Positions 22,506 through 54,093 of a stretch of 64,000 bases of DNA are shown in pieces. The notes beneath the pieces are model-generated. The model ran no database searches. It had not been told where the DNA came from and saw only the letters and a program-made list of their open reading frames with translations. The DNA lies in NCBI GenBank assembly GCA_030386875.1, contig CM059557.1:61148514-61212513 (forward strand), given 5' to 3'. Position numbers and translations under genes: made by a program. Each line of letters starts with the position of its first letter. Position 1 is the first letter of the stretch. Source of the DNA: Morinoia aosen (lineage: Eukaryota > Arthropoda > Malacostraca > Amphipoda > Talitridae).

Positions 22506-22519
22506 GTGAGTAGACTTGA

Positions 22520-28214: not shown

Positions 28215-28414
28215 CATACTATATTTCATACTATATTTCATGAGTATATTTATACTCATGGATCAGTTTTTGTGAGACACTATGCTGAGATTAGCTATGA
28301 CCTTAGTAGACCATCGTTTTGCTTTCTCGCCGTGAGACTGACTGGACTACTGTAGAGTCAAACCTAGTGACTTTAGAGCCGCAGCAATGTTTATAAATAA
28401 AATGATGTAAATTT

Positions 28415-28757
28415 GATTAGCCTCCCAGTCCCATGACAAAGATGTTCAAAGAGAGGAATTGGATGAAGACATCATTTACTACGGAGTTTAGGGAACGTGG
28501 AATCAGTGCACAAGGAGCATAGAAAGAGTAAGCTAAGAAAGAAATTGACGAAACAAGAAAAATGTTGAAGAAGAAAGTAGTAGCTGCTTAAAAATTGGAC
28601 AGCAGTGAACCGAAAAAAGACGGTTCGTAACAAAACAAAATGCCTATGCTATTTCAACAAAAAGAAAGCCGACGAAACATTCAGCTTGGTACCTCACATA
28701 ATCCCCCTTGGAGCGCTAATTCCCATAGATACAATAGTTGTATCCCCCTGAGGGTAG
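28415..28757 (-). repeat. Hairpin-ended SINE-like repeat (inner N)
   Basis: The family member contains the GATACAATAGTTGTATC palindrome near 28726-28743 followed by CCCCCTGAGGG. The homologous copy in the outer N is at 54094-54425. Sense direction is inferred only. Confidence 0.75.
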
Positions 28758-29675
28758 TGGTGTGAAAAAGTTGAGTTATTTATAAGTCATCATTTTTTTA
28801 TAGTGGCCCACGAGCTGCCAGTTGTGCACATCTGCTCTAAATGTAATAAAATAAATATCAATCATATAATTTTATAACACATATCGTCACGTGTATATTC
28901 GTTTGATAAAAACGAGTATTGTAAATATTATAAGACGCCTTTGAGGAATTTTGTTCTCTATTTCATTTACGTGGGACACTTCCATTTGTTAGTAACAATT
29001 TATATCGACAATTATCCACTCGTTCTTCAATAATTTCACGAGATTTGTGAATTAGAATCAGTGTATGTTTACTTCAATAGGAATGGCTTGCCTCCATTGA
29101 AAAACCTAAATACAGTAGAACTCCTAAAATTCGAACATTTTGCTATTCCGGACATTAGGAAGTTTTCGGATTTCGGGAAGGACACATTTAGCATTGTGTA
29201 CCCTCAAAGTTTTCTAGGAACAAATTTTCTTTCTCAAAAGAAAACATATTACTCGTATTCTACGGCCAACTGAGTCACAAAAATTTCAACTAAGGGTCTA
29301 AACTCTAAAGCTTTATGACTGTGTTAAAAGGTCAAATCAAACAACTTTTCGTGGAAATGTATTATTTGTGAACTTAAAGTGTGTCTACCATGACAAGGTA
29401 TGACGCAAACTGAAAATATGCAGCAATGTTAATATTTATGACTAACATATATTGAATATATATTATTAAACACAAAAAGATATGCATAAACTGATTGTAG
29501 AAAACTAAATTACAAATATTTATTCTGTAGAAATATAGTATATTGGAAAGCATTGTATTGTTCATTTAGACAAAACGTAGTTGAAAATTAGACAAATACA
29601 ACAGGTAACAACACACATAATGTAACAGCAATTTCAAATGTGGTTGAACTGAAACTGATAAACTGTAATCATTTA

Positions 29676-30055
29676 TCATGCTTCTCTATCATTATCAGTA
29701 AAATCAAAGGACTCTTGTATACCTTTCTTGATGCTTTGGCGGACTTTGTTCAATTTTGCGTTGCTTGCTTTACTAGAAAGTAATGTTGTTTTTAAGTTAT
29801 ACGCCTGCAATGTGTCATCACCGTTGAAACAAGGAGTCATTTCTATAAATTCTATAACTTTATCTATGTATGATTCTGCTGCATTGCACGTGGTTTTACC
29901 TTGGCATTCATTGTCAGTAAGGTTCCTTTCGTACTATCTGGATTCGGCAAGCATTCAATGTTCTCATAATTTTTTGGAGCGGAGTGTATAATCTCGTCTA
30001 TGTCTTCCATCCACTTTTCCACATACTCACGTTCAATATCTGCGAATGCGCCGCT
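29676..30055 (-). pseudogene. Detached C-terminal tail of the Tigger transposase
   Basis: Directly after the TAA at 30056-30058 the same frame continues with an acidic stretch (REYVEKWMEDIDEIIHSA). After one shift near 29915 it goes on to a stop at 29676-29678, with a Lys-rich end (KVRQSIKKGIQE). This is what the last ~125 residues of the original protein would be. One nonsense change and one shift separate it from the main frame. Confidence 0.7.
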
Positions 30056-31342
30056 TTATGAAGCTAAGTGAAATGATTCATTAATAAACTCTTTATTTCG
30101 TGACTTGACAGAATTTTTCTGTTCATGGTATGCTTCATTCATTGAATTGATGCCATGCAACAATTGATGCCATGCATTCGAGAGAGTTTCGCATTTCACA
30201 GTGTTCCACGCTGACGCTATCGCATACAAAGCGTGTTTGATGGTAAAGCAGCGCTGAAATTCGCCAGGATGTGTGTCGCCATGTATCATTTGAAGAATGA
30301 AATTTCTCTTGTAGAAACATTTCAAACTTTGTATTACACCTTGATCCATAGGTTGGATCAGTGCCGTAACATTTGGGGGAAAATAACGTGCGAAAATAAT
30401 GCCATCATCAGAAACCAGTTCCGTTTCCTCTGGATGCGCTGCACAGTTATCTAAAAGAAGCACGCACTTTGCACGAGGCTTTCCCACTGCTTGCAAATTT
30501 TTTTGTACTGCTGGAACGAATTCATTGAAAAACCATTCTTTGAAGATGTATTTGTTCATCCATGCATTAGGTTGTGAACGATATGTGACTGGCACATTAT
30601 GTGTTCCTTTCAATGCTCTTGGATTTTTTGCCTTTCCAATCACTAGAAGTTTTAATTTGTGCTTCCCAGAAGCATTGGCGCAGGTTAATACCGTAACTCT
30701 TTCTTTATTCTTTTTAAATCCAGTTGCTGTTGCTTCTTCATTTGCAGCAAGTGTTTTACTAGGTAGGCATTTCCAATTGAGCCCTGTCTCGTCGCAGTTA
30801 TAAATTTGATCGGGCGTAAGTTCATTTTCTTTTATAACATTTTCAAAGGTGTTCTTGAAGACTGTTGCTGCATCTGCGTCTGCCGATCGCTTTTCCCCAG
30901 AAATACTTAGCTGTCGTATGCCATGCCGTTGCTTGAATGATCGCAACCAACCTTGACTAAATGTAATATCCGAAGTTATTTTCATTTCTTCCTTCAATAT
31001 CTTAGCTCTAGCAATCAACAATGGGCCTGATACAGGTACACCTTCCTTCCGTTTTTTTGAAAACCAAGCGTACAAACATTTGTCAAAAGTCGCATCTCTT
31101 GGTTGGTATAATGTTTTCCTTCCTAACGTTCTTCTACATTGGGAATTACAAACGGCAGCCAGAATTTTACTCTTCTTTTTTTTAATATCACAAATGGTAG
31201 AAATACCAATTTCATATCGTCTTTTAATTTCTTTATATGACATTCCGTCTTCTATGCATTGCAGTACTTGCCGTTTTTCCACAAGAGTTAATACCTTATA
31301 TCTTGCTGTTGCTCGTTGCTGTTCTTTTCGTTCAGACGCCAT
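30056..31342 (-). CDS. Tigger/pogo transposase, nearly full length
   Basis: A 428-codon open frame. Residues of about 14-60 form the CENP-B-type N-terminal helix-turn-helix. About 83-145 form the second CENP-B/Tc5-type DNA-binding helix set, ending WLRSFKQRHG. The DDE_1 catalytic core has D184 (YNCDETGLNW), D298 (LLLDNCAAHP) and D333 (LIQPMDQGVIQSLK). These bind element ends in the nucleus and cut and join DNA at TA. The frame ends at an in-frame TAA after residue 428. Homologous sequence continues in frame beyond it, so the usual acidic C-terminal tail has been cut off. All catalytic residues are present, and truncation may or may not abolish activity. Confidence 0.93.
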   Translation of the reverse strand: MASERKEQQRATARYKVLTLVEKRQVLQCIEDGMSYKEIKRRYEIGISTICDIKKKKSKILAAVCNSQCRRTLGRKTLYQPRDATFDKCLYAWFSKKRKEGVPVSGPLLIARAKILKEEMKITSDITFSQGWLRSFKQRHGIRQLSISGEKRSADADAATVFKNTFENVIKENELTPDQIYNCDETGLNWKCLPSKTLAANEEATATGFKKNKERVTVLTCANASGKHKLKLLVIGKAKNPRALKGTHNVPVTYRSQPNAWMNKYIFKEWFFNEFVPAVQKNLQAVGKPRAKCVLLLDNCAAHPEETELVSDDGIIFARYFPPNVTALIQPMDQGVIQSLKCFYKRNFILQMIHGDTHPGEFQRCFTIKHALYAIASAWNTVKCETLSNAWHQLLHGINSMNEAYHEQKNSVKSRNKEFINESFHLAS

Positions 31343-31928
31343 TATGGGTTTCTCGATGAATAAATTATAACTACCTATCTATGTATTATGGATGAATCTG
31401 TGGTATAAATAAATCATTGAGAAATACATCTAAAGACCAGTTGTACGTTTTAAACGGTATTGTAACTAAGAGTAACATGGTAACTTTACAACACGAATTG
31501 TTTGTATTACGCACACATACACTGCTACTGCTCATTTACAATCCTGTTGCTTGGGTAAAGTTATGAATGTGCCCGGTTAGCAACAGATGACGCTACCGTC
31601 GGTTTGGGTTTTAGAATTTTTGGGTTTTAGGATGTCGGATTTTACGAGTATTTCAAATTTTGGGATTTCGGATTTTAGGAGTTCTACTGTATAAAATACA
31701 GGTACTGAGCGGCTGCTGCTGTCAGGTGAAACAGCACCACTACTTAATAAAGTTCAACATTTACAACATTACAAATATTCGGTTGCTACGAACATTTTCT
31801 TATGATAAAGAGCTTTTGGCTGAAGCGTAGTTAAAACACACAATTTTGCCTAGCTAGTAGAAGCATTTTTGAGTTTTCCGCTAATGCATAAAGTCGTAAA
31901 CAATACTATGGGAAAAATAATAAATTGA

Positions 31929-32227
31929 TCACTTTAAAACGTGAACATTCAAACAGCCAGTGTTCAGCAAAAACGAATACGCACAGCCTCCCTCGTTGAC
32001 GACAGATATACTACTAATTTCTTCACACAAGCGAGCCCACATGAGCAGCCTGAGATTAAGTTCTTCAGGGTTCCATTCCTCGTCCTCGCTTCCGATGTGT
32101 GATGCCGAGACTTTCATCAGCGATGCATCTTCATCAACGCCTGAAGTAACCTTCAGCGAAGATGATCCTCGTTTTCCGTGCCAGTCTCGGGCTCTTCTTG
32201 CCTTGAAACCCAATTCTGCAGCGCAAT
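31929..32227 (-). pseudogene. N-encoded gene, terminal exon (inner copy)
   Basis: This is the counterpart of 26176-26465. The acceptor (CTTAATTTTTAG) and frame are retained, with the same DWHGKRGS, SEDEEWNPEELNL and LLMWARLCEEISS blocks. A three-residue insertion is seen near the start (KARRARDW against KARDW). Substitutions are spread through it without a stop. Confidence 0.5.
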
Positions 32228-32340
32228 CTAAAAATTAAGGTGTAGTTGTAAGATAATACTATACAATGAGGTGAAACTGCATACCAATCAACATATTGGT
32301 TATTATTCTAATATAAGTTAGTTTAAAACTTCTCTAACCA

Positions 32341-32738
32341 CCCTTTAGTTTAAGCTTCTTAAGAGGCACTCCAAAGAGGCGCTCCAAAGAGGCGCACCAA
32401 AGAGGCGCACCAAAGAGGCGCTCCAAAGAGATTTATAATGAAAGGACAATCTAGTATAGGACTCGTACATGCGGAATCTATGCACAACGTGTGTTCCCAC
32501 ATGGGCCATCCATGTGAGGTAACACCAGTGTGTTGCAAGTTAACTGAACACAATGCGCATAGAAACAGCAGGTCAGAAAGAAAGCCTCAACAAGATTAAA
32601 GTTTAAAACGTAAGTAATTGGCTCAGAAGAAAAGGATAGTACTGACCCAAAAAAAGATGGTCTTAACAAAACAAAAGACACTTTTTCATCAAAAAGAAGG
32701 CCTACCTAACCGTCAGATCGGGCCCGCATATTTTCCAC
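32341..32738 (+). repeat. Hairpin-ended SINE-like repeat, old copy (inner N), with 13-bp tandem units
   Basis: Counterpart of 25728-26085. In this copy a 13-bp unit, AAAGAGGCGCWCC, is repeated about four to five times at 32370-32430; it is absent from the outer copy, so the expansion is private. Confidence 0.6.
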
Positions 32739-32917
32739 GTGGGAGCTCAATTCAACATGAAGATATACATTTTTGATGACAGACCGTCATAACAGCAATT
32801 CTGAGGTGTATTTTACAACGAGGAATTGTTTTGGAGCATATTTAAAATTATTTGGCCATTTCATTGCATGATGTCAGTGGGTGATATGAAGGAGAAATAC
32901 AAACGAAACATTTACGT

Positions 32918-33200
32918 CCCAGTCAGAAATTTATCGTCTGACCGACGAAAATTTACGTCCGAATTTACCAGTAATTATCATCTTCTTCTTCCTATAAACC
33001 GACGATATATCGTCAGAATTAGTGTCGCGAATGTCCCCTATTATCGTCCGATTTACGTTAAATTACCGGTTTTTATCGTGAATTTTGGACGAAGACCGAC
33101 GATATTAACCAGTCAATTACCGGCAGTTAAACGATTATTATAGTCGGTCTTCGTTCAAAACTCACGATAATTACCGTTGATTTAACGTTATCAATCGCTA
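32918..33200. repeat. Left subterminal repeat zone of G
   Basis: Short motifs such as ACGATAAT, GACGAAAAT and AATTACCG recur in both orientations and reappear in the right end (about 46590-46786). Such arrays often serve as transposase binding sites in CACTA-type elements. That role is inference here. Confidence 0.7.
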
Positions 33201-34179
33201 CTCTAACCACTATATTCCAGGAGATTCATAAGCAGTGCAACGATTTGTCCCAAAAATAGCGAATTGCTCCCAAAAAAATGGGCCACACCTCGTGAAATGC
33301 GTCTGTCCAATTACCGCAAATTTGAACACTGCACAAAAATTCTGAAAAAACTTAATTTAATTCAACAAATATGTTAAACACTGTCCATATATTTCCGCAA
33401 GTTTCTTGCAAATTGCGATAATTGAACAGATTAGTATTACAGGGTGAAGCCTATTGCAACAAGTAACAATGCCTTATTAGAAAAAATAGTTACAATGCTG
33501 ATGAATGCTACAGTAAGAAGGCTCAAAATGTCATCTTCATCGAAGAACACGAGACAATTACGATAAGTCTCACAGTACAATATATTTATTTCAAAAACGC
33601 CACTGATTTATAAATAGGTTAAAACATTACAGAAATGAGATTTTTCAACACATATATTTATTTCATTTTCAACAGCCGTCATTTGACTATTAAAATAAGT
33701 TCATACAAAAATATCTTCGGCACTCAAAGAATTTCATCACACGTTTTTGTAAGATTCACCACTACAAACAATACGTATATAACCTTCATTTAAAATTAAC
33801 CGCCACCACAAAAGGATTCGTCAAGCAACCGATTACTAAGAAAATTTTACCAATTTTTAATTCAATTTGCACCCTTCCATTCTTAGACATCAAATATCTA
33901 CTATGACCAGCCCTCTCAACCACTACACATCTTAGTCCTTTAAATGGGATGAGACGACAGGGCCCGCACTAATGCTATCGAGTCGCAAGTAGCAGAGGGC
34001 GGAATTATCCTCCACAGCCATATCTTTTCAGAAGAAGTTACCCTCCACCTCCCGCTGCAATGCGGCTCCACGTTTGTTCCTCTATAGGATTCTTAATTTA
34101 CTAGATATTCACATCATAAACAAATGAACAACTGAAATTTTTCAAATGAAACTTTCCCATAAAACTGGTGCTATTAGGC

Positions 34180-35010
34180 AAAGAAATGTAATGCCGATAC
34201 ATCCTGTTCGATTAAACGAAAATAAAATCCGTAGAAAAAATACAACATACTTTGGGTTCTTTTTGGTACCAAAAATAGATGAACAGATGGCACATCAAAT
34301 CAGAACGATCAGTAAGTGCTAGTATCGAATGAACTCGTCAATTCGCGAATGAAAATATTATTTTCACATCCGTTTTTTGACATTCCTGCCACAGAAATTT
34401 TCGTAATGCCGATCCCTTATGTTCAATAAAACACAAATGAAATCCGAAGACAAAAGCGAAAAACAGTGGGGCCTTTTTTGGTACCAGAAATAGATGAACA
34501 GATCCGACATCAAGTTAATTAGTACGATCAGTAAAGACTAGTTCAAGACCAGATTTGATAATAGTTTAGTTTTAGCCTCCCTAACCGCAACAAAAAAAGG
34601 TATCGAAGAGAGGAAAGAGGAAGGCACCATTTAGTATGGATAATATGGATTGCGGATACTATATAGAAGGGGCATAGAAACAGTAAGATTAGAAAGAAGT
34701 TCATGAAACAAGACAAAAGTTGAAGAAAGTAGTACGTGCTGAAAAACAGGACAGCAGTGGACCGAAAGAGGTCGGCCTTAACATAGCAAAAAAAACCTTT
34801 TATGTCAACAAAAAGAAGGCTCACCTAACTCTTAGCTCGGGCCCTCACATCTTCTCCCTAGGAGCGCTAATTCCCATACATACAATGATTGTATCCTCCG
34901 TAGGGAACAACTAGTTCCAAATGAACTCAATTCGTTGATGCATATGTTATTTCGGCATCCGTTTTTTGACATTCCAGCCACAGAAATTTTTGTAATGCCG
35001 ATAATACCTC
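34180..35010 (+). repeat. Direct repeat of about 220 bp, third unit split
   Basis: The block CCACAGAAATTTTCGTAATGCCGAT, with TTTTTGGTACCAGAAATAGATGAACAGAT downstream, recurs at about 34190-34330, 34385-34520 and (first part) 34970-35005. The third unit is separated by a SINE-like repeat. This is tandem duplication within G, not coding. Confidence 0.65.
34545..34910 (-). mobile_element. Hairpin-ended SINE-like repeat in G, 8-bp duplication
   Basis: It is flanked by ACTAGTTC at 34537-34544 and 34911-34918. One end carries a palindrome of the GATACAATNNTTGTATC type next to a CCTCCGTAGGG block. The other end has TTAGTTTTAGCCTCC followed by AT-rich DNA. Family members share CAGCAGTGAACCG, AGAAGGCCTACCTAAC and GGAGCGCTAATTCCCATA blocks. 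Duplications of different length in different copies (8, 12 and about 11 bp) point to retroposition. Internal Pol III boxes are not evident. Confidence 0.7.
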
Positions 35011-35426
35011 ATGTTATTAACCTGCAAAGTATTCCACGGAGGCCGGCACAAGAACGTCAACGCATTCGTGAAGAATTCAAGAATTACAGAAATTAGTTAC
35101 ATAAATTATATCAAAGTCCTTTCACGAGTCATCCTGTGTTAATAATAGCATAACAGCGAAAATTTTGTGTTACGATTGTTAACAGGTACGTACTTTTGAA
35201 TTAAATGAACAACTGACAGATACACCCTACTATTAAGACTGCCAAGTCAGTCACAGTGTTGCCAACTCTATAGCGCAGCAAGGAGCTAGATTTCTAACAG
35301 AAATCCGCTAGATAATTGTTGAATGATATATTTTGTTTAGACAGTAAATTACAAAAAATGATAAGTCAGCATAGCACGTTAATCATATTAAAAATTACTT
35401 GCAAGTATAAACTAAATTGATTAAAT

Positions 35427-35759
35427 GATTATTATTATATAAGAAAGTTTTAGCCTCCCCTAACTGCACGACAAAGATGTTCTAAGAGAGGAAGGAGGAA
35501 GGCACCGTTTAGTATGAAGTTGAGGGAACGCGGAATCTATGTACAAGGTGCACAGAAACAGGAAGCTAAGAAAGCAGGTCGTGAAAAAAGAAAAAGTTGA
35601 AGAAGAAAGTAGTAGGTGCTGAAAAACAGGACAGCAGTGAACCGAAAAAAAAGGTCCGTAACAAAAAGGAAGCCTACCTAACGTTTAGCTCAGGTCCTCA
35701 CATAGTCACCCGGGAAGCGCTAATTCCCATAGATACAATACTTGTATCCCCCTGAGGGG
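35427..35759 (-). mobile_element. Hairpin-ended SINE-like repeat in G, 12-bp duplication
   Basis: The 12-mer AATTGATTAAAT stands immediately before (35415-35426) and after (35760-35771). The right end has AGATACAATACTTGTATC and CCCCTGAGGGG; the left end has the TTTTAGCCTCC block. It is nested in the hAT remnant. Confidence 0.78.
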
Positions 35760-36241
35760 AATTGATTAAATAATAAAGTGTTTCTTCATCGGCGATTGAG
35801 CGTGGCAATGCTAATAAATTCATTGCTATGGGAGAAACGTGATTGAATGGATTGTTGCCTGCAGCATTGTTAGATTCAGTTACTTCTACCTAAAGTTCTG
35901 TCGGGGATTCAATATTCTTCGACTGTAACAATCTCAGTTTGTTTCACGCTACTTCATTGCTTTTTATTTTTCGTATTGTAGTTATGGCAGAACAAGTCGC
36001 TTGCCTTTTAGCTGATTGAGGGAACCAATTATAGGTTTGTTCAATAATAAAATCTACATTTCTTAGCGGAGCTTCTGCTCAAGCATTAGATACTGACCAT
36101 TGAATTGAGTGGCACAAGCATCAGACCGAGTTGCGTCGAAACATCCTTTCTCAATGGTTTGCTAAAATACCTCACCAGGTAATTTATTATCTGATGTATC
36201 AGTGCTTTCAGCAATTAGTGTGTTCAACTTTTCACATATAT

Positions 36242-36586
36242 ATCAGCACACAGTTTACTGACGAAATGAAGTGCAAGAACATTCACAAAAAATTCCCTGT
36301 ACTTGCTGAAATGAAGTTTGATACCCGGTTCTGCTTTACAATCAGTATGCTGAGATATCAGCACACAGTTTACTCACAAAATGAAGTGCAAGAACATTCA
36401 CAAAAAATTCCCTGTACTTGCTGAAATGAAGTTTGATACCCGGTTCTGCTTTACAATCAGTATGCTGAGATATCAGCACACAGTTTACTTACAAAATGAA
36501 GTGCAAGAACATTCACAAAAAATTCCCTGTACTTGCTGAAATGAAGTTTGATACCCTGTGCCGTTTTACAGTCAGTAAATGAACTG
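36242..36586 (+). repeat. Three tandem 115-bp units
   Basis: Units start at 36242, 36357 and 36472 (ATCAGCACACAGTTTACT). Units 1 and 2 are almost identical; the third diverges in its last 30 bp. The minus-strand frame of the hAT remnant passes through them, so this is a private expansion of former transposon sequence. Confidence 0.92.
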
Positions 36587-37525
36587 CAGCACACTCACGA
36601 CAGATGGTCAGCAATAGCAGAGGAACTATATTCTGCGATATGCAAACATAATTTACCCTCTGTTGCACTCTGTAGCGTCTTCCTCAAAAGCTGTGATTTT
36701 CGACTGACGAACACTCCAGGCAACATGCGAAAAATTAATCGTGTTTTTGGCTCATCAAATTTTTCAGGGCACACAATTTTGCGTTTATGGTTCATTTACA
36801 ATAGTCCCAAAATGCATTTGCATTGTAGGCAGCCTCTACATTCAGGAAAAGATTTCCAACTTTTCCGGAAGTATCATGCTTAAGCACAAGTGATTACGCC
36901 GCACTCTCTACCCCACACGCTACTCACCACAACCAACACATGAATGGCTGCTGCTGGCATGGAATGATGTCGCCGAAAAAACGTTACATGTACTGAACTT
37001 GACCGCTAGAAATTGTTACATCATTAGTTGAATACATTTTTCTATAGGTATAGATAATTGCGCCTATAATAGGAAAGTAGGTAAATTAGAGCCAAACCGT
37101 ACTTCAAATACTCTGGTTTTTCCGCCAGGAGCTAGATAGTGATTTTAGGAGCTAGATGAAATCTCAATACTCGAGAACTAGCTGGAAATCCGCTAAATTG
37201 GCAACACTGTCAGTTGCCTTTCAGTTTTTCCAGTATGAAGGTTGGCAGGGACAGCACGCATGGGGAACGGGTGGGAGACATTAGATGGTGGGTTAGGGGT
37301 TTTTTGAAGAGGCGGGGAGGGAGAAGACGCGTTGCCCCGAGAAAAGCACCCTTCATCTAAACCCAGCTTGAGGAAGGAGCATCATGACCTGATGTCGACG
37401 GAGCTAGGCAAATAAGGGACTGAGAGGCGGTCAAAGTAAGCGATGAAGAAGCAAGTAGCCTTTGAGGAAGTGCACTGGTTTTCTCCGGCCACTTTTCTGA
37501 TTCAATCCGTCGTCTCTGAGCCAGC

Positions 37526-37790
37526 TCAATCGTTGCAACGAAGCAGGACCCCTTGGATGCCTGACGCCTTCAGGTTCTTATCTTCATCATACCCGACTCC
37601 AGCTAATGCATCCGATGAATAGAATTTATTAGTAAATATTACCTGTGCAAGTGAAAACAAAATAAAATAAATTACCACTTGCTGAATGACTGTGTTTTGA
37701 GCAAGCCAAGCTAGCTTTAATTGTGATCTCAACATTTGGCCCATCAGGCTTTGGCTGCCATCGGAGAATAAGTCGATTACCTTAACCCTG
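37526..37790 (-). other. Possible decayed exons of unknown type
   Basis: On the minus strand two open stretches (DLFSDGSQSLMGQMLRSQLK, then VIFTNKFYSSDALAGVGYDE) are separated by a 35-bp AT/T-rich tract ending CACAG. This looks like an acceptor, but the intron would be unusually short. No family was recognised, and the region may be chance coding. The surrounding 37220-37500 is GC-richer than most of G. Confidence 0.2.
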
Positions 37791-38157
37791 AATACAAAAC
37801 TTGGTATCGGTAACCTATTGGACAGCTGAGCGTTAAGTTATTGATAATTTATTTTTATAGGAAACTTTGAACCAATTTGACTTGTTAAATTTGAAGAAAA
37901 TGATGTGTTAATAAAACAAACTGATATTAAAACGTAACATTGAGGACTGACGTCCATGCAATGCTCAAATATACTGAAGAATAACCAATTGTTGAACGAA
38001 AAAACAGATTATTCACATTAGCATTTAATTATCGATTCCGCCCACTGCAATGCTAATACGTTTTCAAATGTTGCAACCAATCTGCCAGTCATTGTTACAA
38101 CAAATTAGTATCAATAAATCCCTTTATTTGCGTTACCATGACGAAAGATGATTATTA

Positions 38158-38506
38158 GTTTGTTTAAGCCTTCCTATCCGCAGCCATATTTATGCGATGC
38201 AAAGAGAGGAAGGAAGAAGGCACCATTTAGTATGGAGTCAAGGGAACGCGGAATCTATGCCGAAGGGGCATAGAAACAATAAGTTGAGTATGAAGTTCAT
38301 GAAAAAAGAACGAAGTTCAAGAAGAGAGTAGTAGGAGCTGAAAAACAGAACAGCAGTGAACCGAAAAAAGAAGGTCCTTAACATAATAAAAGCATTTTAG
38401 TTCAAAAAACTGAAGGCCTAACTAGCTTTTAGCTCGGGCCCTTACTTTTTCCCCCTGGAAGAGCTAATTCCCATAGATACAATAGTCGTCTCCCCCGGTG
38501 GGGTAT
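38158..38506 (-). repeat. Hairpin-ended SINE-like repeat in G
   Basis: All family blocks are present: GTTTAAGCCTTCC at the left, CAGCAGTGAACCG in the middle, AATTCCCATAGATACAATAG and CCCCCGGTGGGG at the right. Target duplications are not clear. Another member follows after about 35 bp in the same orientation. Confidence 0.72.
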
Positions 38507-38540
38507 TACTATAATGGAATGCCATTTATGATATCAGTTA

Positions 38541-38892
38541 GATAACATGTTAGTTTAAGCCTCCCCCACCGCTAAAAAGATCGTTTCGAAGAGAGGGAGG
38601 GAGGCACCATTTAGTATTGAGATAAGGGAATCCGGAATCTATGCAGAAGGGGCATGGAAACAGTAAGTTGAAAAAAAAGTTCATGAAACAAGATATAAGT
38701 TGAAGATGCCAGTAGTAGGTGCAGAAAAACAGGGCAGCAGTGAACCAAAAACTGGTGGTCCATAACATAACAAAAAAAATTCTATTCCAATAAAAAAAAG
38801 GCCTACATAACTCTCAGTTGCGCCCTCACACCTTTTCCCCATGGGGGTGCTAATTCTCATAGATACAATAGTTGCATCCCCCTGAGGGGAAA
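38541..38892 (-). mobile_element. Hairpin-ended SINE-like repeat in G, 11-bp duplication
   Basis: GATATCAGTTA (38530-38540) before and GATATTAGTTA (38893-38903) after differ at one base. The terminal GATACAATAGTTGCATC and CCCCTGAGGGG hairpins are preserved. Confidence 0.75.
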
Positions 38893-40975
38893 GATATTAG
38901 TTAATGAACGAAAAGAACTGTGTAAGCTTACACGAACCTTATACTAACTCACAGGTGGAATGCTCCTTGAAAGAGATTTTCATCTGTAGACGAGCTTGTC
39001 CTAACACAGAGTAGGATATTTCCTAGGCCACACCACCGTCATGACGTCATGGTGAGCTGGTGAGCTGGTGACGTGCGGACTGACACCCACACATCGCTGA
39101 AATTAAATAGAAATTAAATAGAGCATGTAATTGTGTGTGATAAATCAAAATCAAACGCGTTCCCCATTTTGGAAACTGCCTAATTGTAAGAAGAATGAAG
39201 CTTTGTTTGTAAAAACCTTTTTACTACACCATACCATATCATACTATATAAAGAATGACCAGGACATTTAGACATCTAAATAGGATCGAGATTCATGCCG
39301 CTTTTACCTTCACAGGAAAGTTTTCATGGATTGTTAAATTCTAAATAAACGGCGGATAGGCCAGTCAGTCCAGCCTTTGTGCAATAATTCCTAGCCTCTG
39401 AGGGTAGGTACTGCAAAGAGAGCCATCACAGCGTAATATGTTATTCACTCTGGTAATGAAAAGTTTTACGTGTGCAATCACTGACCAGCATCACATTTTC
39501 ACAGTACTTTTCAACAACTTTATGCTTTTTGCCTACTGAATGCAGTTGGAAATTGGCATCTTTGATATCATTTCCATGATAAGTTTTTATGTTTATCCTT
39601 ATTCATAAGCAAAATTAAAATTTTCAAATTGATTCCACACACAATAAACCTGGAAAGTAATTTCTGATTATAAATATAGTGTTATATGTTCCTCATTGGA
39701 AAAAAATTCATTTCTAAATTTTACATTTGCCCGGAATCATCAAAACAATTCAAACAAACATTATGCTGGGTGTCTTCTTATATTTCCGTTCCAAATTTTA
39801 CTACTTTTTACAACCTTTAACAGCAAAAAATGACTTCCGAATTTTTACAAAATGAATGTTGTCCAAATGTGCAGGATGTAAGAAATCATCGTATAATGAG
39901 TAGTTTGAGTCAATAATACATGCCATAGCATGTGTTCAAAAAAATTTCAAGTTGATTAATACATAAAATACTAAATTAGAAACTTATTACTAAATGAAGC
40001 GTCCAATGCATAATTGCAAAAAATATCCAATTTTTTATGTACCTCTTCCCAAACAGACCTTAACAAATCTTTGGCCAAGACCCTGCCTCATTTTTGAACA
40101 ATGAGAACAGATCATATGCAAAAAATAAACTGACTGGAAATTAGTAGACACCGGGGAATTGTCCAATCCTCTTACAGGAACATTTCCCACAAACTGCAGC
40201 AAATATCTGATTCTGAGAGAAAAGAATTTTTGAAAATCAATCTTCAAACTCTATGTGCATATTTACTTTACATTCCATTTTCAGTGAATTATCCCGCTTC
40301 ACAATTTTTTACAACCCTGACAGGTAAAATAAACCCTCAAGGCAAATTTCATTACTACTTTCTTTTTTGCTGCTTTTCAAATTTTTTTACTTTTTACTAC
40401 CTAGTAGACACCTTGTTATGGGAATGAAAGAAATGTCCGATAATCAACCCAAAGCAATAGTATTGAATCATAAGAATTAAATACTTCACATTTCAACATG
40501 ACAGGTCTTAATTTACTTGAGGTATCAGCAAAGGCTTCATTGGGTGAATTGCATGAAAAGTAACTATTGTCTCTAGCATCAGACTCAAGCAAATCTAGAT
40601 GGATTTCACTTACTGAGTTTCCAAAGTTTTATTGACTCTGGGCTGTTTTTGATGGGAGTATCACATTGAATTTTGACAGTTAAATGAAACAGATTTACTG
40701 AACAAGTCTAAGCGTTTATCAGGATGTGAATAAGAATTAGAGGGAATCAAGAGCTGTTCACTTCATTTCCATTATTGGATGATTCTGAAATTAATAAATC
40801 ATTAACACAAGGTTGGGAGACATTACCAAATACATCTGGGCAAGTGTGAGAAACTAGATCATTTATTATTTAACTTTTCAACATTAAAAACCTTACAAGA
40901 ACATCATTGGAAGAACAATGGTAAGAAATTCACTTTGCATATTTTTATTGATTTACTGTCAATAGTTGAAAAATT

Positions 40976-41165
40976 CACTAACTCTGTAGTCTATAAAAAA
41001 GCAATATTTTGATTTACAAACATCTTCAGGCTGAAAATACATATAAAAACACATACAGTCACAATGATAAAGTGCAAATATAATACCCAAAGCTACAACA
41101 TACGGAGTGATAATTTTGAAAATGACAGCACTGGAAAATGATTAGAAGCAAAACTTGCACCACAT
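40976..41165. repeat. Left inverted arm flanking the minisatellite
   Basis: It is homologous in inverse orientation to 43541-43745, sharing blocks such as CTAACTCTGTAGTCTATAAAA and the AGCTACA region. Similarity fades outward to about 40920. The arms bracket the tandem array, making the centre of G a foldback. Confidence 0.75.
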
Positions 41166-41219
41166 TAATAAGTGCTGGTGAGACTATATCTTTTTACTAT
41201 ATAATAAAAAAACTCAGGC

Positions 41220-43260
41220 TTTATTTTGACAAGCTCGGGTCATATTTCGAAAAGCTCGGGTTACATTTCGAAAAGCTCGGGTTACATTTCGAAAAGCTCG
41301 GGTTACATTTCGAAAAGCTCGGGTTACATTTCGAAAAGCTCGGGTTACATTTCGAAAAGCTCGGGTTACATTTCGAAAAGCTCGGGTTACATTTCGAAAA
41401 GCTCGGGTTACATTTCAAAAAGCTCGGGTTACATTTCAAAAAGCTCGGGTTACATTTCAAAAAGCTCGGGTTACATTTCAAAAAGCTCGGGTTACATTTC
41501 AAAAAGCTCGGATTACATTTCAAAAAGCTCGGGTTACATTTTGTAAAGATCGGGTTACATTTCGTAAAGATCGGGTTACATTCCAAAAATCTCGGGTTAC
41601 ATTCCAAAAAGCTCGGGTTTTATTTCAAAAAGCTCGAGTTTTATTTAAAAAAGCTCGGGTTTTATTTAAAAAAGCTCGGGTTTTATTTAAAAAAGCGCGG
41701 GTTCTATTTCCAAAAGCTCAGGTTTTATTTCAAAAAGCGCGGGTTTTATTTCAAAAAGCTCGGGTTTTATTTCAAAAAGCTCGGGTTCTATTTCAAAAAG
41801 CTAGGGTTTTATTTCAAAAAGCTCGGGTTTTATTTTAAAAAGCTCCGGTTTATTTCAAAACGCTCGGGTTTATTTCAAAACGCTCGGGTTTTATTTCAAT
41901 AAGCTCGGGTTTTATTTCAATAAGCTCAAATTTTTTTTCAAAAAGCAGATTTCATTTCAAAAAGCTGATTTCATTTCAAAAAGCTGATTTCATTTCAAAA
42001 AGCTGATTTCATTTCAAAAAGCTTTGATTTTGTTTTCAAAAGGCTTTGATTTTGTTTTCAAAAAGCTCTGATTTTGTTTCAAAAAGCTCTGATTTTGTTT
42101 CAAAAAGCTTTGATTTTGTTTCAAAAAGCTCAGGTTTTATATTTATAACTAGGTCACATATTTTGAAAAATCTCAAGTTCAATTTATAAAAACCTCAAGT
42201 TCAATTTAAAAAACCTCAAGTTCAATTCAAAAAAACGTCAAGTTCAATTTAAAAAAACCTCAGGTTCAATTTAAAAAACCTCAAGTTCAATTTAAAAAAA
42301 CCTCAGGTTCAATTTAAAAAACCTCAAGTTCAATTTAAAAAACCTCAAGTTCAATTTAAAAAAACCTCAAGTTCATATTAAAAAAACCTAAAGTTAAATG
42401 TAAAAAACCTCAAGTTCAATTGAAAAAAACCTCAAGTTCAATTTTAAAAAACCTCAAGTTCAATTTAAAAAAGCTCAAGTTCAATTTAAAAAACCTCAGG
42501 TTTATTGTTAAAAACTTTAGGTTCAATGTAAGAAATCTCAGGTTCAATGTAAGAACCCTCAGGTTCAATGTAAAAAACCTAAGGCTCAATGTAAAAAACC
42601 TAAGGCTCAATGTAAAAAACCTCAGGTTCAATGTGAAAAACCTCAGGTTCAATGTGAAAAACCTCAGGTTCAATGTGAAAAACCTCAGGTTCACTGTGAA
42701 AAACCTCAGGTTCACTGTGAAAAACCTCAGGTTCAATGTAAAAAAACCTCAGGTTCAATGTAAAAAACCTCAGGTTCAATGTAAAAAACCTCAGGTTCAA
42801 TGTAAAAACCTCAGGTTCAATGTAAAAAACCTCAGGTTCAATGTAAAAAACATCAGGTTCAATGTAAAAACCTCATGTTCAATGTAAAAAACCTCAGGTT
42901 CATTGTAAAAAAGGTCAAGTTCAATATAAAAAAGTTCAAGTTCAATGTAAAAAAGTCCAAGTTCAATGTAAAAAAGTCAAAGTTCAATGTAAAAAAGTTC
43001 AAGTTCAATGTAAAAAAGTTCAAGTTCAATGTAAAAAAGTTCAAGTTCAACATAAAAAAGTTCAAGTTCAACATAAAAAAGTTCAAGTTCAACATAAAAA
43101 AGTTCAAGTTCAACATAAAAAAGTTCAAGTTTAATTTAAAAATGCTCAAGTTTAATTTTAAATGCTCAAGTTTTATTTTATATGCTCAATTTTAATTTTA
43201 AATGCTCAAGTTGATTTAAAAAATCTGAAATTGATTTTAAAAAGCTCAAGTTCAATTTAA
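41220..43260. repeat. Two-kilobase minisatellite, 19-21-bp unit with drifting sequence
   Basis: About 100 units run from AAAAGCTCGGGTTACATTTCG (41220-41930) through AAAAGCTGATTTCATTTC, AAACCTCAAGTTCAATTTA (42180-42480) and AAACCTCAGGTTCAATGTA (42490-42890) to AAAGTTCAAGTTCAATGTA (42900-43140). Neighbouring units are nearly identical, while distant ones differ, so expansion was local and repeated. Because 21 bp equals seven codons, long frames appear in several phases on both strands (for example 254 codons with a Lys-Leu-Gly-Leu-His-Phe heptad). They are products of the repeat, not evidence of a protein. Confidence 0.95.
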
Positions 43261-43540
43261 AGCACCCAATTTTGGTATAAAAGAGGTCACGTGTTATTTA
43301 TAAAAGGTCAAGTACATAGGCATAGGTAAACAATTTTAGAAGCATTAGATTTTCAAAATAATTCTGTTACAAAATATACTTGACATATTTTAAATTATAA
43401 CCTGTATTGAATTAAACTTGTGCTTTTTAAAATAGAACTCAAGCTTTTTATAAGCGTAAATAAAAAAGTGTAGGTAACAGTATTGCTCTAGGTGTAATAC
43501 TAAAAAATATGTTAATACTGTTACCTAACCTTACTAAAGT

Positions 43541-43745
43541 AGTACATATTGCTGTGGTACAAATTTAGTTTCTAGTTATTTTCTTGTGTTGTCATTTCTA
43601 AAATTATTACTTTGTCTGATGTAGCTTTGAGTATTAGATTTGCATTTTATCAATGACTGAAAATATTTTTCTGTATCATTCTAGCCTGAATATGATGTTC
43701 CTATTTTAAAACGTCACTTTTTATAGACTACAGAGTTAGAGAATT
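43541..43745. repeat. Right inverted arm flanking the minisatellite
   Basis: Partner of 40976-41165. The outward continuation (43745-43800) still resembles the complement of about 40920-40976. Confidence 0.75.
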
Positions 43746-44365
43746 TATCAACAACTGACATTGTTTCAATAATAATATGTTGAGCAAATTTATTACTGCT
43801 TTAACACACAATGAAATGGAATGATTTGATGAAGTTGGAGATTTTGCCCAACTAATTCCGATTTGTCATTAGATTGAGAACAATTTCCAAATTAATAATG
43901 CTCATGACAATCCTTAAATGTTTCTACTGCACAAGCAATCAAGAACATAATTTCAGCTTCTGCAAAGACATTGTAGATAAGTAGTGGGATGTCAGCATAG
44001 CATATCAGAAAGAAACTATCAGTAGAAATAAGTTGGAGTGGGTGTGAGAAAATATTAAACTCAATTTTTCCCCAAAAAATATTACTGGTGTCCATTAAAA
44101 GTGCGATTCAGAAATACACCACACCTCGTCTCTAAAAACACAACTAAGGTGAGTCAGAATATAATTTGTAATGTCAACACATGTTAAAATAAGATCTTAC
44201 CAACTTCATCATTTTTGACAATTTTATGCAGTTGGAAAATGCTCTCAATGATGCCTTATCTGTAATAACTTTTTGTGTATAGAAATAGAATACTAATACG
44301 CATATACAAATAATTCTCACAAACAAATATATTACTAAAATGTAATTTGGCAAACGGTCTGGAAA

Positions 44366-44872
44366 GAACCATTACCAATTTTCCACTTTTTGGAGCCTAA
44401 GCATGGCTAATTAGATCAAAATAAACAACTTTTCTTCTATGCACTTTCTGTCGCAAATTAGTATTCAACGAGTTAAAGCGGTAGGTTTAGTTTGGGTCCT
44501 ATGTAATTCATTATTTGCCAGCCCCACAGAGCCTCAACCCACTTCTAGGATCTTTAATTCCTAACAACACAATAGAAATTATCACCCATAAATAATAAGT
44601 TATAACAGTATGTTAACTTTTGTCTTACATGGTGGGAATGCGCTCAATCATTTGAGCGCATCGGAAGGGAGAGTCCATTATTTTCTTGCCATCCAACGCG
44701 CTCGGTGAATTAATTTCCGTTTCAAACACTAGAGTCGCGGTCAGTAATTTACCATCATAACTCGTCAAATACTCATTTGCGACGAAAAGTGCATGGTAGA
44801 AAAAATGTTCATTTACATCTAATTAGCTATGTTTGGGCACCAAAAAGTAGAAAATTGATCATTGTAATCTCC
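44366..44872. mobile_element. MITE, second member of the 20914-21706 family
   Basis: Inverted ends around ACCATTACCAATTTTCCACT and GGAGCCTAAGC pair with GGGCACCAAAAAGTAGAAAA. Both members share TTAGATCAAAATAAACAACT and TGCACTTTCTGTCGCAAAT-type blocks and the GGAAGGGAGAGTCC core. It lies in G and lacks the SINE. Confidence 0.72.
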
Positions 44873-45934
44873 TGAACATTAACCACTAATTTTCTGTAAT
44901 GATTACACAAGGTTACTCTCCACCAGTCACCAGAAGGAAAGTCACTTTGAAAATTTACATTTATACTGAAACTAATCTAAATGATGATTTTGATCCAATG
45001 AGACACATTACCTTAATATTCAACAAGTGAGCATTGAATGCTTCACATTTCATCATAATAGGCATACCAGAGCAGGACTCAATGGTAATATTTTTAGGCT
45101 ATTATGCACCATTATAAATAAATTTTTAGTCTCTCAGAAAATAATTTGCACCATCACAAATACAAACAAAATTGGCATAAGCAAGTTACCAAAAATTTCT
45201 AGAAGGTAACTATCAGCACAAATAAATCTAAGGGTAGAAATTATTTACAATTGAAATTTTGCTCAAACCATGATTTTCCTGGCATGAATCAGCAGCTCGA
45301 TTCAGTTACACACCCATTTTCATCCACACTATTTTAAGAAAGGCAGCTGAAATGAATAATTAATGACACCAAACCACTTAGGTATCTTCTTTATACATTA
45401 ATCCTTGTTTATTGCAGTAGAGTAACTCGAATGGTAACTTTGATATGTGTACACATATAAAAAGCAATTTTTTCTTGAGAATGCACAGAATAATTTTGAA
45501 GTCTCCCACGTTACCAGTTAAACACATCAAAATAACTTAAAACGCCAACATTGAGGCAATTAGATCTTGGTTCCAATATTATAAGCTATGAAATTTCAAT
45601 GTTTAGACATAGATACTTTGAAGCATTCCAAACATTAAATAGTATGAACGCTCAAACTTGTAGCACCACAATGACTCCACGCAATGAACAACAGCTCAAA
45701 TGCAAGTCCAACAATCACGAAGGTTTCAATAATTTTAGCATGTGGATTCACTCATTTAAAAATATTTCATTATTAAAACCTGGGAATTTACAAAGGTAGG
45801 CTTGTATTTTTTTTATATGTTCGTTTTCGATCATCTCACATAAAATTATTTCATTAGAAAATAGGTCAATAAGGTTTAAAATTGTTACAAGCACGAACGT
45901 GATAAACAATTGTACTCTCGTACTCTAACTCTTT

Positions 45935-46215
45935 TAAAAACTGACAAGCCGCATCCGGGACGGTACAGAAAGTTTTGGGGAAACTACAGAAATTTCTTGA
46001 GCACGCAGTCAAAAGACTTAAGTTTACCACTCGTAACTTTTGAAAGAATGCACCGATTGACTTTAATTAAATTACTCTCAAACGAAAGAGCAAAGCATTA
46101 CGCTGAAAGAAAATGCTTTGACCGACAGGCCGCAGCCGAGACGGTTCAGAAACGGTTTTGTTGAAACTACAGAAATTTCTTTAGCGCGCAGTCAAAAAAC
46201 TTCACCATTTCACTT
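45935..46215 (+). repeat. Diverged tandem duplication, about 185-bp period
   Basis: The block with CTACAGAAATTTCTTGAGC and a GCAGTCAAAAGACTT tail (45936-46020) recurs at 46118-46202 with about one change in eight. Open frame 45910-46164 merely crosses it. Confidence 0.7.
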
Positions 46216-47138
46216 GTAATATAATGTATAAAGTGTTAAAATTAAAACGCTTGAAATTAAATTCAAAGCATTTGAAGCCTTAGTTGAAGAATTTCACCTT
46301 CATATTACAATGTATAAAATTACAATGTATGAATATTGAAAAGTTGCATACGAAAATCCAATTGAAAGCTTCGGTTTTTTTAGATCTAAGCTTCGAAATA
46401 AAGTTTTCAATTTCCCAATAAAAGAACTAAAGCTCAAATTACATCATGTGAAGATTACGTAAACTAATTTCATTTGACCACGGGTAATACATAACATAAT
46501 TTTATCTGACTTGTCCTTGATTAAACTTATTCATGGACAAACATTGACGATAGATTCAAATAATGAAGTATAGTCTGAAAAACAACAGTAGTTTTACCGT
46601 GGTATTTCTACGGTAAAAATGACAGTCAGAAATTGACGGTAAATCACGGTCATCATCGTCGGCGTGCCGTTTTAGCGTCTAAAATTACCGTTGATCACTG
46701 GTAATATTATTTACCGTCGGAATACTTCGATAAAAGATGAAAACCGATCATAATTACCGTTACGCCGGCGATAAATTTCTGACTGGGGTCAAGCAGAAAC
46801 GAGAGGGTTTCCAGCTAGCTAGATTCAAAGTAGAATCTTTTTAACTGACAAGAAAACCTGTGTAGCATTCAAAAACATCAACAATCAAATGGAGAAACTT
46901 GAAAACAAGGTTAGACTGCATGAAAAACTTAATTGTCAAACTCTGTACACATACATGCCAAGCACATGCGATTAATAACTCTTGTAACAGATCAGCATCG
47001 GTTTATTGCATCAGAATAGCAAAGAAACAGTGTATCAGAATAGCAAAGAAGCAGCAGTTGAATGGAATAATATAAGTTTAATTTAATAGGTTGAATTGAT
47101 TATTTCTTTAAATATTGTATGAATGCATGGAATATTAA

Positions 47139-48141
47139 GGGAGACACCCAAGCTGAGACATACTGAATTAATGAAATGGCTGTAACATTCTTTCTATAGA
47201 ATTTAGATCGATGAAAATTGACATACACATGTTTTTTTGAAATTAAATAGGGGCCGTCTCCATAACTTTTCCCCACTTTTGACACAATTTTGGAGACAAT
47301 TGGGAAAAGAGGAGTATGGGGGAAGTGCGTACTTTTCAAGAGACGTCTCAAAAAATACCAATCTTCGAGCAGTGATTTAGGCGTCGTTGGATGCGCAAAG
47401 AGTTTCTGCATGACCAGTCGAAGGATTATATTTAGTTTCGCTATAGTTTAGATATTATAAAATTTAAAGTTTTTTTCGAAAAATGAATTTTTTTCATATT
47501 TTCAATGTAACCAAAAATTACTATGAAAAAATCATATGTAAGTAGCAGGAGCAACTTTTTACACTTTTAATGGTTTTAAATCATTGCTCTACAATAAAAA
47601 CGCTCGGAGAAAATAGATTTAAAAAAAATACCCATGTACCCTACATTTTCCCCATTATCTCCGTAATTACGACAAAAATGGGAAGAAGTTATGTACACGA
47701 CCCCTATTTATATCTACAAATACATGGGTATGTCAATTTTCATAGATCTAGATTCTATAGACAGAACGTTACAGTCACTTCATTAAATTAACTAATATCT
47801 TCCAATCTGTAATTCTCTACAAACATTTTCCCACGTAACTTATAAATTATCATGAAAATCAAAATAATCCTTCGACTTGTCATGCAGCAATTTATGGCGA
47901 ATCCAATGATACCTAAATCATTGCTCTACGATAAGTAATTTTTGAGAAGATGTCTTGAAAAGTATGTACTTTCCCTTACCCTTTTCCCCATTGTCTCCAA
48001 AATTAAGTCGGAAGTGCGAAAAAATTATAGAGACGACCCCTATTTACTTTCAGAAATACGTACGTACGCTAATTTTCATATATCTGAGTCTCATACAACA
48101 AACGTTACAGACATTTTCTTGATTTTGGGTGGACGTCTCCC
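47139..48141. mobile_element. TTAA-type foldback element (inner N)
   Basis: Counterpart of 22520-25229 without the LTR: 1,003 bp, TTAA at 47135-47138, ends GGGAGACACCC and GGTGGACGTCTCCC. It directly follows the exon 2 remnant, as in the other copy. Confidence 0.7.
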
Positions 48142-48155
48142 ATAAGTCTACTCTC

Positions 48156-48325
48156 CAATGATTTGAAGGCAGAATGGATGCTCTTTGAATTCTTGTTTTT
48201 CTCGCCGCCGGTTTTCCCAAGCTCAGTGTAGCTAAACTGGACAACAAGCTCCCGTGACAGCAAGCTCTTTTGATAATGCGGCGTATGGTCCCTCCGCTGT
48301 TGAACCCTATGTTGAGCTTGTCAAT
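48156..48325 (-). pseudogene. N-encoded gene, exon 2 (inner copy), broken DUF4806-like
   Basis: The acceptor (CTTTCAG) is kept. The translation starts DKLNIGFNSGGTIRRIIKRA, then a frame change, then LLSRELVVQFSYTELGK and IHSAFKSL, again the DUF4806-like pattern. The exon is 170 bases against 174 in the other copy, and the donor GTGAGT has become GAGAGT. This exon is therefore non-functional, while exon 1 of this copy is intact: the reverse of the outer copy. Confidence 0.55.
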
Positions 48326-49174
48326 CTGAAAGTAATAGTTCAGTTGAAATCAAAGTTTACTGTGCGCATGATCAAAAATAACTTTAGAGAAAATTACATG
48401 CAATGGAGGAAAGCAATGCACATTATTCTAGTTGAATGATCTCTACATTTTATGGTTTGCATGCTTTTACTGCAACATTCAACTTTTTTTATATTTCATA
48501 GTTCACATTTCATAAACTTTCATACCTATGCCAGATTGCTGAATAATAATTCTTTCACATCACTCATCGGTTCCAAATTCCTCATTATCCAGTACCAGTT
48601 GACCACTTCCATATGATGATTTGACTCCATTTAAATTAATCTTCACCTTCTTGAATTTCTGTCACATACTTTCTTACTTCACAGTAAACTATGGTACATA
48701 TGTCATTAACTTTTTTTCACTCGATTCCTAGCATGAGCTTCATTTTCCTACCAGTCATTTGCATCAACATACATTGTTTATTGTTTTCTTGTATTGTATT
48801 GTTCTTTCTGTTACCGTCCACCTCTATGCTTATTTTCATCTTTACCCTTTAACCAATCAAATCAGTTTTCAGGCCCTCCATCTCAGCACTTTTCACTTTT
48901 GCGTGTGCAATGCTTTCAATACACTCAAACTCCAAATTTTTCACATTCTCCTCTCATCTTATCCACCCACTTAACAAGCCTAACATATCATTCTTACACA
49001 TCAACCTAAAAATACAACTCTACATGAAAAATGTCTATCATAAACCAGGCATGCTCATCTACAGTTACTTCATCTTATTCCTAAAAATACAAAATCATTT
49101 AAGTAAAATTATATTTTCATTATAATGGGTTTTCTAGACTGTTTGCAATAAGGCACAAACAAACTAGTGACATA

Positions 49175-49206
49175 TGCTGTATATATATATATATATATAT
49201 ATATAT
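49175..49206. repeat. TA microsatellite
   Basis: About 14 TA units. The homologous place in the outer N (about 20715-20725) has only a few, so the array expanded privately. Confidence 0.85.
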
Positions 49207-50101
49207 CATTATCCAATATATATAAACTATAAGCTGGTGATTTAAATTCATTTGAGAACATTTTGTGCGTTCATTTCACAGCAATTCATTCTGGATGAAA
49301 GGAATAAAATTTGGCATAAACATTCTGGCAAAAACATAATTAGTAAGATAAATAGTTCTATTGCTTTCTAAAAATTAGGAGATGATCTTTTATTATGTCT
49401 GTTTTCCTAAATCTTTGATTAGGATAGCAAAGCTTAAATTAACAAATCATTCAAAGTAGAAATAAAACTTACTCTGGCTGAGAGATGAGTGTCCTGCTGT
49501 CCGGGTGAAAGCGAAACACTGAGGAAGCTGAGAAGAAGTTACCCTGCCCTCATCAAGTTCTCACTCTGTAGTTGAAGTCCCAGTGATACCATACAGGTTA
49601 TTTTCGCAGTGTTCATGTATTGCTTGGGAATGAAGAAAATTACGGTAGATTGTTAAATATTGAAAAATAATTGAAATCCGTAAATAACATTTTATCATAT
49701 GCTACATATTCATTACTTGTTCATTATAGAAAACTATTTCACAAGCAATATAATTAACTTTTTGTTTCATTTTCAATCGATGTAAATATTTTCTATTTCC
49801 ACATGTTTGTTTATACAAGGGGCTCACACTGTGTCAAAGAACTTCAACACTAGGTTGGGACAATTAAAACATACGTACAATGAAAAAAAAACACACAGTT
49901 TCTGATATTTTTTAAAAATATTTGTGATTTCAGAGTGATATCTGAAGAAATATATTGCACAAAAATTCAAGTCACTTAGCTAAAATATTGACATTACGTT
50001 GCATTTTGGCTTTCATCTTGCAATTGGCAAATCAGAATTTGATGCAACACAAACTGACAAAGTACAAGGGATCAATGACATAGACTAAATATAATCCTTA
50101 C

Positions 50102-50257
50102 TTGCAGTTGTGAGCTGGTGCACAGGTACTGCTTCCATTTGGAGGTTTTTGGTTGTTGCTCTTTTGTGATTGTTCGTGAGAGTTTTGCCAAGAACATGCA
50201 TGACACAAGAGCTCTTGTTCTCTTATTAGTAAACTCAACTGCTGCAAATTTTTTCAT
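50102..50257 (-). pseudogene. N-encoded gene, exon 1 (inner copy), open
   Basis: A 52-codon open exon starts at ATG (50255-50257) and ends in phase 0 before a good donor GTAAGG. The translation begins MKKFAAVEFTNKRTRALV and continues with a basic, Lys/Gln-rich stretch (ITKEQQPKTSKWK). The 'FAVVEF'-like start is what I remember from arthropod proteins with a C-terminal DUF4806 domain. The same frame is open further upstream to 50410, but the outer copy does not keep that frame, which favours this start. The gene as a whole is dead in this copy because of exon 2. Confidence 0.5.
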
Positions 50258-51654
50258 GTCTTTCATTCCTACTGACCAGATAAATCTTCCAGACCTTTCT
50301 AGAATTGTTTTTAGCAATAAGTCAGGTTGTGGTATTGCATTCATAGAAACCTTATTAGAGCAATAATTACCTACACAAATTATTATGGCTCGATACTCAA
50401 TAGCAGACACAAGGATTGCATCAGCTGTATATTTATTATATTGTAGATGGGGATGCCATCAATTTTCACTTTAAACAAATGAGAGATGCACTCTCATCTT
50501 AGAAATTTCTTTTTAATTTTTTTTTCAACTGCTTATCCAATCAAAGTGCACACACTCTTATTTACATATGTCACTCACTTCACATCTGAATCATATTTTC
50601 ACTGTTACAAATTGACAAAGAGCTGTTGGAATTATCAGTCGATCAGCTGATCAGTTCGATTCACTGCGCGTGTTTTGAACTCTTTCTGGAGAAATGACTT
50701 CTGAAGAGCTACCTACGTCGATTTGAATTTTCAAAACAGGCAACAATCCCTGGTCTTTTCTGTCTTTCACTCTATTCATAGAATAATTTTCTCATTCTTT
50801 GATTTTCCATCATCATAGCACAATTGCTAAGCGTATTTTTTACATTTTAAGCTTATCTCACAAACTAAGAACGACCAGGTTTAGTTTGACTAACGCGCTT
50901 CTTGTGAAGTTGCGACTGATGTCAACACTGACCGCTGCACGCTTCCGTGGTGAAATGTGTGCGACCAAAAAACTAGTTCTATATTTTTACTATTTCATGT
51001 GACAATATAACTATTTCGCTGGCAATCAAAATTATTAAAATATTTTTCACTATGAAGTAAAATAATTGATGAATGAGTTTAATAATATGATGCAAAGCTG
51101 GAAGTAATTATTTTTGCTGGAGAAATTCCACAAGCGCTTTATGAACATGCTTGTACAACTTATAAAAGACTTGCATTAAAATTTGGAAGTTGCATTTCAA
51201 TGGCTCATAATAATTTTAGCCCTGCTGCAAGTAGAATTATTTTACCTATATCAATGCGCATGTTTATTTGTTCGTGGGTTACACCACGCTTGTTTCCTAT
51301 CAAATTGATCAAGTCATTAATGTCGGTCGTCGGAATTTCAAGTTTTCATAACTAGGAGCAGAACGACGAAGGGATTTTAAGGGAGTTGGTATTTTATTTC
51401 TACAGCAAAATAATTGCTGAATAAATTGACGGTGTGAAGGAGTTTAAAATGTGAAAATGAGCAAACAAAATTTCCAACATGGCTAGCACATTTTAGAAAA
51501 AAAATTAAAATTCCCTGCGTTGTTTGCGTAGAGAAATCGGAACATAGAATTGTACTCCCTTGGTGGTGAGCTAATACTGAAAACGTGATGTATGTGAAGT
51601 TTAATTTAAAACAAACCAAGTTCACTTGTGAATTGGCTTACTGTAAGAGGTTCT

Positions 51655-54089: not shown

Positions 54090-54093
54090 TTAA

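Follow-up and report, generated by a model that had tools for sequence, protein, structure and literature searches.

In a 64,000-nucleotide stretch of the genome of the amphipod Morinoia aosen (GenBank assembly GCA_030386875.1, contig CM059557.1, positions 61,148,514 to 61,212,513; hereafter the window), three large insertions are nested in one another. Element G lies within one copy of a second element, N, and this inner N copy lies within another, outer N copy. Judged from their sequence, G and both N copies are likely to be cut-and-paste transposons of the animal CACTA (EnSpm/TRC) kind, large and non-autonomous. All six ends start with CCC (CCCAG or CCCAA), the insertions are bordered by 2-bp duplications, and no transposase of their own is recognisable by Pfam in either element. 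The initial annotation of this DNA had proposed three separate insertions of big elements and had named CACTA/EnSpm as the nearest known pattern. Both proposals are supported: the duplications are TT, TT and GT, the elements measure 12-14 kb without recognisable transposase, and ends and duplication length fit the TRC group.

G terminates in a perfect inverted repeat of 19 bp, CCCAGTCAGAAATTTATCG. It had previously been assigned 13-bp inverted ends and the borders 32918..46786; the inverted repeat and the left border stand, whereas the repeat is longer than stated and the right border falls one base further, at 46787, which gives 13,870 bp. GT is found on both sides as described, the flanks reading ACATTTACGT before G and GTCAAGCAGA after it. 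When joined with one GT, these flanks align to the outer N copy, in which TTGACGTAAATG is unbroken at ~25557. This empty site, likewise reported before, is a direct sign of 2-bp target duplication.

One 12-14 kb element accounts for both the outer and the inner N. As its two copies lie in opposite orientation, large inverted pairs are seen in the window. Nine collinear blocks match between the copies at 81-89% identity, and two further blocks lying off the diagonal are 69 and 72% identical. TT is present outside all four N ends. The inner copy is lodged in the outer one between CACTGATT and CTAATTC, and an unbroken version of this site is present within inner N itself, at ~29057, so that the empty site of inner N is also seen. 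Empty sites are thus found for G and inner N, and the TT of outer N rests on matching flanks without an empty site. The nesting gives the order of insertion: outer N, then inner N, then G.

Two other views of N, as a palindromic foldback element and as an element ending at CACTGA with a Helitron-like look, were dropped, as the pairs 16737-56971 and 26764-52636 provide each copy with a left and a right end and with TT outside. Foldback elements are characterised by kilobase-long terminal inverted repeats; left and right ends of a single N copy agree unbroken over the first 4 bases only and differ at 2 positions in 13. The alternative TT-flanked pairing, 16737-52636 with 26764-56971, produces intervals that overlap instead of nesting.

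G and N have their terminal sequence in common. With both strands counted, the 13-mer CCCAGTCAGAAAT occurs at exactly three sites of the window, 16737 (+), 32918 (+) and 46775-46787 (-); second-order Markov sequences modelled on the window contain it 0.003 times on average (n = 300). The claim that N shares this 13-bp end with G is exact for the left end of outer N. The other three N ends deviate from it, the left (CCCAGTCTGAAAT) and right (CCCAATCAGAAAT) ends of inner N by one mismatch each and the right end of outer N (CCCAAACAGAAAT) by two. That N and G are otherwise unrelated is nearly right: beyond the ends, blastn (word 7, E<=1e-3) matches them only within two repeats of ~300 bp and ~120 bp, of which further copies occur in other parts of the window or inside the elements.

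The window is rich in repeats, minisatellites and palindromes, and it might be asked whether ends and duplications are accidents of repeats or assembly, G being no transposon. We searched the whole window for CCC...GGG pairs (13 bases, <=2 mismatches, equal 2-bp flanks) and obtained 19, five of which join G or N ends; six are situated in a palindrome common to the N copies (27105-27643, 54851-55398), and eight remain. Accident is nevertheless hardly credible in view of the 19-bp perfect inverted ends with their 2-bp duplication, the unbroken empty site in a paralogous copy, and the threefold occurrence of a 13-mer expected 0.003 times.

DeMarco et al. (2006) described CACTA-related elements of animals (TRC), with 2-bp duplications and CCC as suggested core end (PMC1636069). 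The CCC start, previously taken to set G and N apart from animal CACTA elements, is therefore not supported as a distinction. TRC of Aedes aegypti (9.2 kb, 10-bp inverted end CCCAGTCAAC, 2-bp repeats) is like G in its large size and duplication length, and the first 8 bases of its end are those of G and of the left end of outer N; unlike the 13.9-kb G, it holds SmTRC1-transposase-like sequence, and its inverted end is shorter (10 versus 19 bp; PMC1636069). SmTRC1 of Schistosoma mansoni is similar in its CCC start, 2-bp direct repeats (in 7/14 copies), empty sites (three, in other repeats) and internal tandem-repeat region; it differs in its 54-bp terminal inverted repeat, size of ~4.5 kb and open reading frame with a Transposase_21 domain (PMC1636069). 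Hydra Spongebob_HMa / EnSpm-4N1_HM was assigned to TRC/CACTA because of its end, CCCAGCCAACATTGAC, and its 2-bp duplication (PMC4298943). It agrees with G at 7 of the first 8 bases and in duplication length, and differs in its 5.8-kb consensus and in little end agreement past these bases. CACTA elements of Daphnia were identified in part from their terminal inverted repeats (PMC2884549).

Published ends were further compared over the 7 positions following CCC and ranked against 868 CCC sites in the window, G and N ends included. Agreement of the Aedes end with G and the left end of outer N is 5/7, a value reached by 10 of the 868 sites, these ends themselves among them. For the Hydra end, it is 4/7 (44/868).

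Plant CACTA elements (En/Spm) have CACTA ends and 3-bp duplications, are large and have non-autonomous derivatives. They resemble G and N in size and, as regards four of the six ends, in subterminal arrays of short motifs, and differ from them in terminal sequence (CCCAG/CCCAA in G and N) and in duplication length. Tc1/mariner elements duplicate TA and piggyBac elements TTAA, whereas G and N duplicate GT and TT. What is found, CCC-starting ends with duplications GT, TT and TT, is as in animal CACTA/TRC elements.

CACTA elements carry subterminal arrays of short repeated motifs, to which their transposase binds. We scored the density of 7-mers repeated on either strand in 250-bp segments, using 2418 background segments from which three tandem arrays were excluded and in which those overlapping element ends were retained. 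The score of both G ends is reached by 31/2418 background segments, that of the right end of outer N by 8/2418 and that of the right end of inner N by none. The motifs involved are GACGAT and TTACCG in G versus GCAGAT, AAGATC and CGATCG in the right ends of N. These blocks, present at four of the six ends and not at all of them, resemble the transposase-binding arrays of CACTA elements. A score similar to that of the G ends was also obtained for 2001-2376, which is dense in short repeated motifs centred on TCTAGAT and in which no CCC end was noticed.

Several results weigh against the assignment to animal CACTA/TRC. Both left ends of N are without an excess of subterminal repeats, their score being reached by 645/2418 segments. 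The Aedes end agrees with the other three N ends at 4, 4 and 3 of 7 positions (61, 61 and 212 of the 868 CCC sites do at least as well) and the Hydra end at 3/7 (200/868). The Tribolium TRC end (CCCTAGTAGC..., also with 2-bp repeats; PMC1636069) agrees with the five types of G and N ends at 1-3/7 (191-773/868). Elements of the CMCT group, with duplications of 2-5 bp, in most cases have 5'-CA..TG-3' ends (PMC12730594), which G and N lack. Finally, the superfamily is suggested only by ends and 2-bp duplication, because no transposase-bearing relative was found, a search for one not having been possible.

G and N might derive from another DDE/D superfamily, known or undescribed, in which CCC ends and 2-bp duplications became TRC-like by convergence. 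That no own transposase is seen in either element would suit such an origin, as would the nature of the TRC link, a short end identity that is weak for three of four N ends. Against it, CCC start, differing 2-bp duplications and large size jointly fit published animal CACTA elements, and subterminal repeat arrays at 4/6 ends fit CACTA elements in general. We therefore regard another superfamily as unlikely. The initial annotation went further and suggested a large, little-described superfamily. This is not needed, since non-autonomous members of animal CACTA/TRC, as proposed in 2006 (PMC1636069), would have such a structure and such ends. G and N look like further members of this known kind; the match of their ends to TRC lies at group level and not at that of a named family.

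Coding content was examined by Pfam scans of all six frames at E<=0.1, stop codons being replaced by X, a procedure that a transposase with many frameshifts or outside Pfam could escape. No family was detected in any frame of G, or in any frame of the outer N parts 16780-26763 and 52637-56971. The inner N part 26764-32917 yielded nothing beyond Tigger-like domains in one frame, and 46790-52636 nothing beyond a Med25 match (E 0.078, below the curated cut-off), which was taken as chance. Transposase_21 (PF02992) was found at this threshold in none of G, outer N and inner N, an absence expected of non-autonomous copies. In control scans, known domains were regained in three of four stretches (Tigger-like, broken mariner-like and broken endonuclease, one frame each); no domain was recovered from the fourth, 59000-63997.

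Stop-free frames in outer N extend to at most 125 codons. G has five of 129-258 codons, each contained entirely or for the most part in a 21-bp minisatellite, and its others do not exceed 112 codons. The longest frame of inner N is the Tigger-like one (440 codons); two of 137-138 codons are antisense to it, and the next has 128. This Tigger/jerky-like frame (30056-31378, minus strand) encodes a 440-aa DDE transposase and is absent from outer N; its closest protein shares 93% identity with it across 84% of its length.

G could alternatively be a decayed autonomous element, its transposase having diverged beyond recognition. With Spm/En at 8.3 kb and Rim coding elements at 14.1 kb on average (PMC1636069), the size of G fits complete CACTA elements, and the 11-19% difference between the nine collinear N blocks means that coding relics could be worn. 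The scans of G are empty, yet the same procedure works in three of four control stretches, and such decay appears quite improbable. Having no Pfam-recognisable transposase of their own, G and N are therefore probably non-autonomous and moved in trans.

As animal CACTA/TRC-like elements, G and N would depend on a transposase encoded elsewhere in the genome. It would recognise ends of the CCCAGTCAGAAAT type, probably along with motifs in the subterminal regions, then excise the element and insert it with a 2-bp staggered cut. Outer N entered first, inner N followed into it in inverted orientation, and G entered inner N last. We infer that a common or closely related transposase mobilised G and N by cut-and-paste. 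There is a slight chance that both belong, as non-autonomous members, to a lineage with its own undescribed CMC-like transposase, which would read a CAGAAAT core beside CCC, and that each family carries 12-14 kb of non-coding cargo and has subterminal motif codes of its own.

G and N open no new transposon class. With its two empty sites, their nested arrangement is a clear record in which CCC-ended elements of two families are directly seen to have 2-bp duplications, and they show that members without recognisable transposase can attain 12-14 kb.

Literature text search with CCCAGTCA and "transposon" returned PMC1636069 among the matches listed; the literal 13-base end CCCAGTCAGAAAT and the term CMCWR gave no match there. 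Three patterns of G and N ends had no match in viral contigs, and the G end had none in genome contigs. Nor did plasmids yield any match when 34400-39000 was used as query in a distant search. Since the collections scanned consist of prokaryotes, viruses and plasmids, these results say little about animals.

Several repeats reside within G and N. A dispersed repeat of ~200-350 bp, ~70-80% identical, has four copies in G (34554-34905, 35446-35761, 38150-38503, 38538-38889), one at the same place in each N copy (28417-28754, 54077-54405) and one outside N and G (60045-60306); a further copy, 32549-32753, is weaker. The 21-bp minisatellite of G (~98 copies, 41205-43261) lies between the arms (40921-41176 and 43541-43796; 75% identical) of a 259-bp inverted repeat. 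Related short elements with inverted arms of ~110-130 bp are found in outer N (20921-21700) and in G (44361-44884).

Table 1. Coordinates of G, the N copies and their associated features in the window
Feature	Position	Strand	Remark
Element G, putative CACTA/TRC-like DNA transposon without recognisable transposase	32918..46787	+	13,870 bp
G left terminal inverted repeat	32918..32936	+	CCCAGTCAGAAATTTATCG
G right terminal inverted repeat	46769..46787	-	
GT target duplication left of G	32916..32917	+	
GT target duplication right of G	46788..46789	+	
G empty site in outer N copy	25557..25558	-	single AC within TTGACGTAAATG, read as GT on the opposite strand
G left subterminal block, repeated GACGAT/ATCGTC, TTACCG, TTATCG	32918..33217	+	CpG observed/expected 2.55
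G right subterminal block	46538..46787	-	internal copy of end part AGTCAGAAAT at 46624-46633
Outer N copy	16737..56971	+	14,360 bp of own sequence, split by inner N
Inner N copy, inverted	26764..52636	-	12,001 bp without G, including the Tigger/jerky-like stretch missing from outer N
TT duplication, outer N left	16735..16736	+	right partner 56972-56973
TT duplication, inner N left	26762..26763	+	right partner 52637-52638
N right-end subterminal block, repeated GCAGAT, AAGATC, CGATCG	26764..27013	+	same end of outer N at 56722-56971

Open frames in the window comprise the Tigger/jerky-like DDE_1 transposase, a mariner-like relic with Transposase_1/DDE_3, and endonuclease and reverse-transcriptase domains. 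We take these to be Tigger, mariner and non-LTR elements, respectively, the endonuclease and reverse transcriptase presumably being of the non-LTR type. A candidate element of 1573 bp (10788-12360) is bordered by TA at either side and has inverted ends of 13 bp, CCCTATTAAAAAT. At the edge of the window, a 574-bp inverted repeat (62692-63265 / 63427-64000), 98% complementary, overlaps a 204-aa frame (62849-63463). Some relatives of this frame carry PF26215, and it may be Penelope-like.

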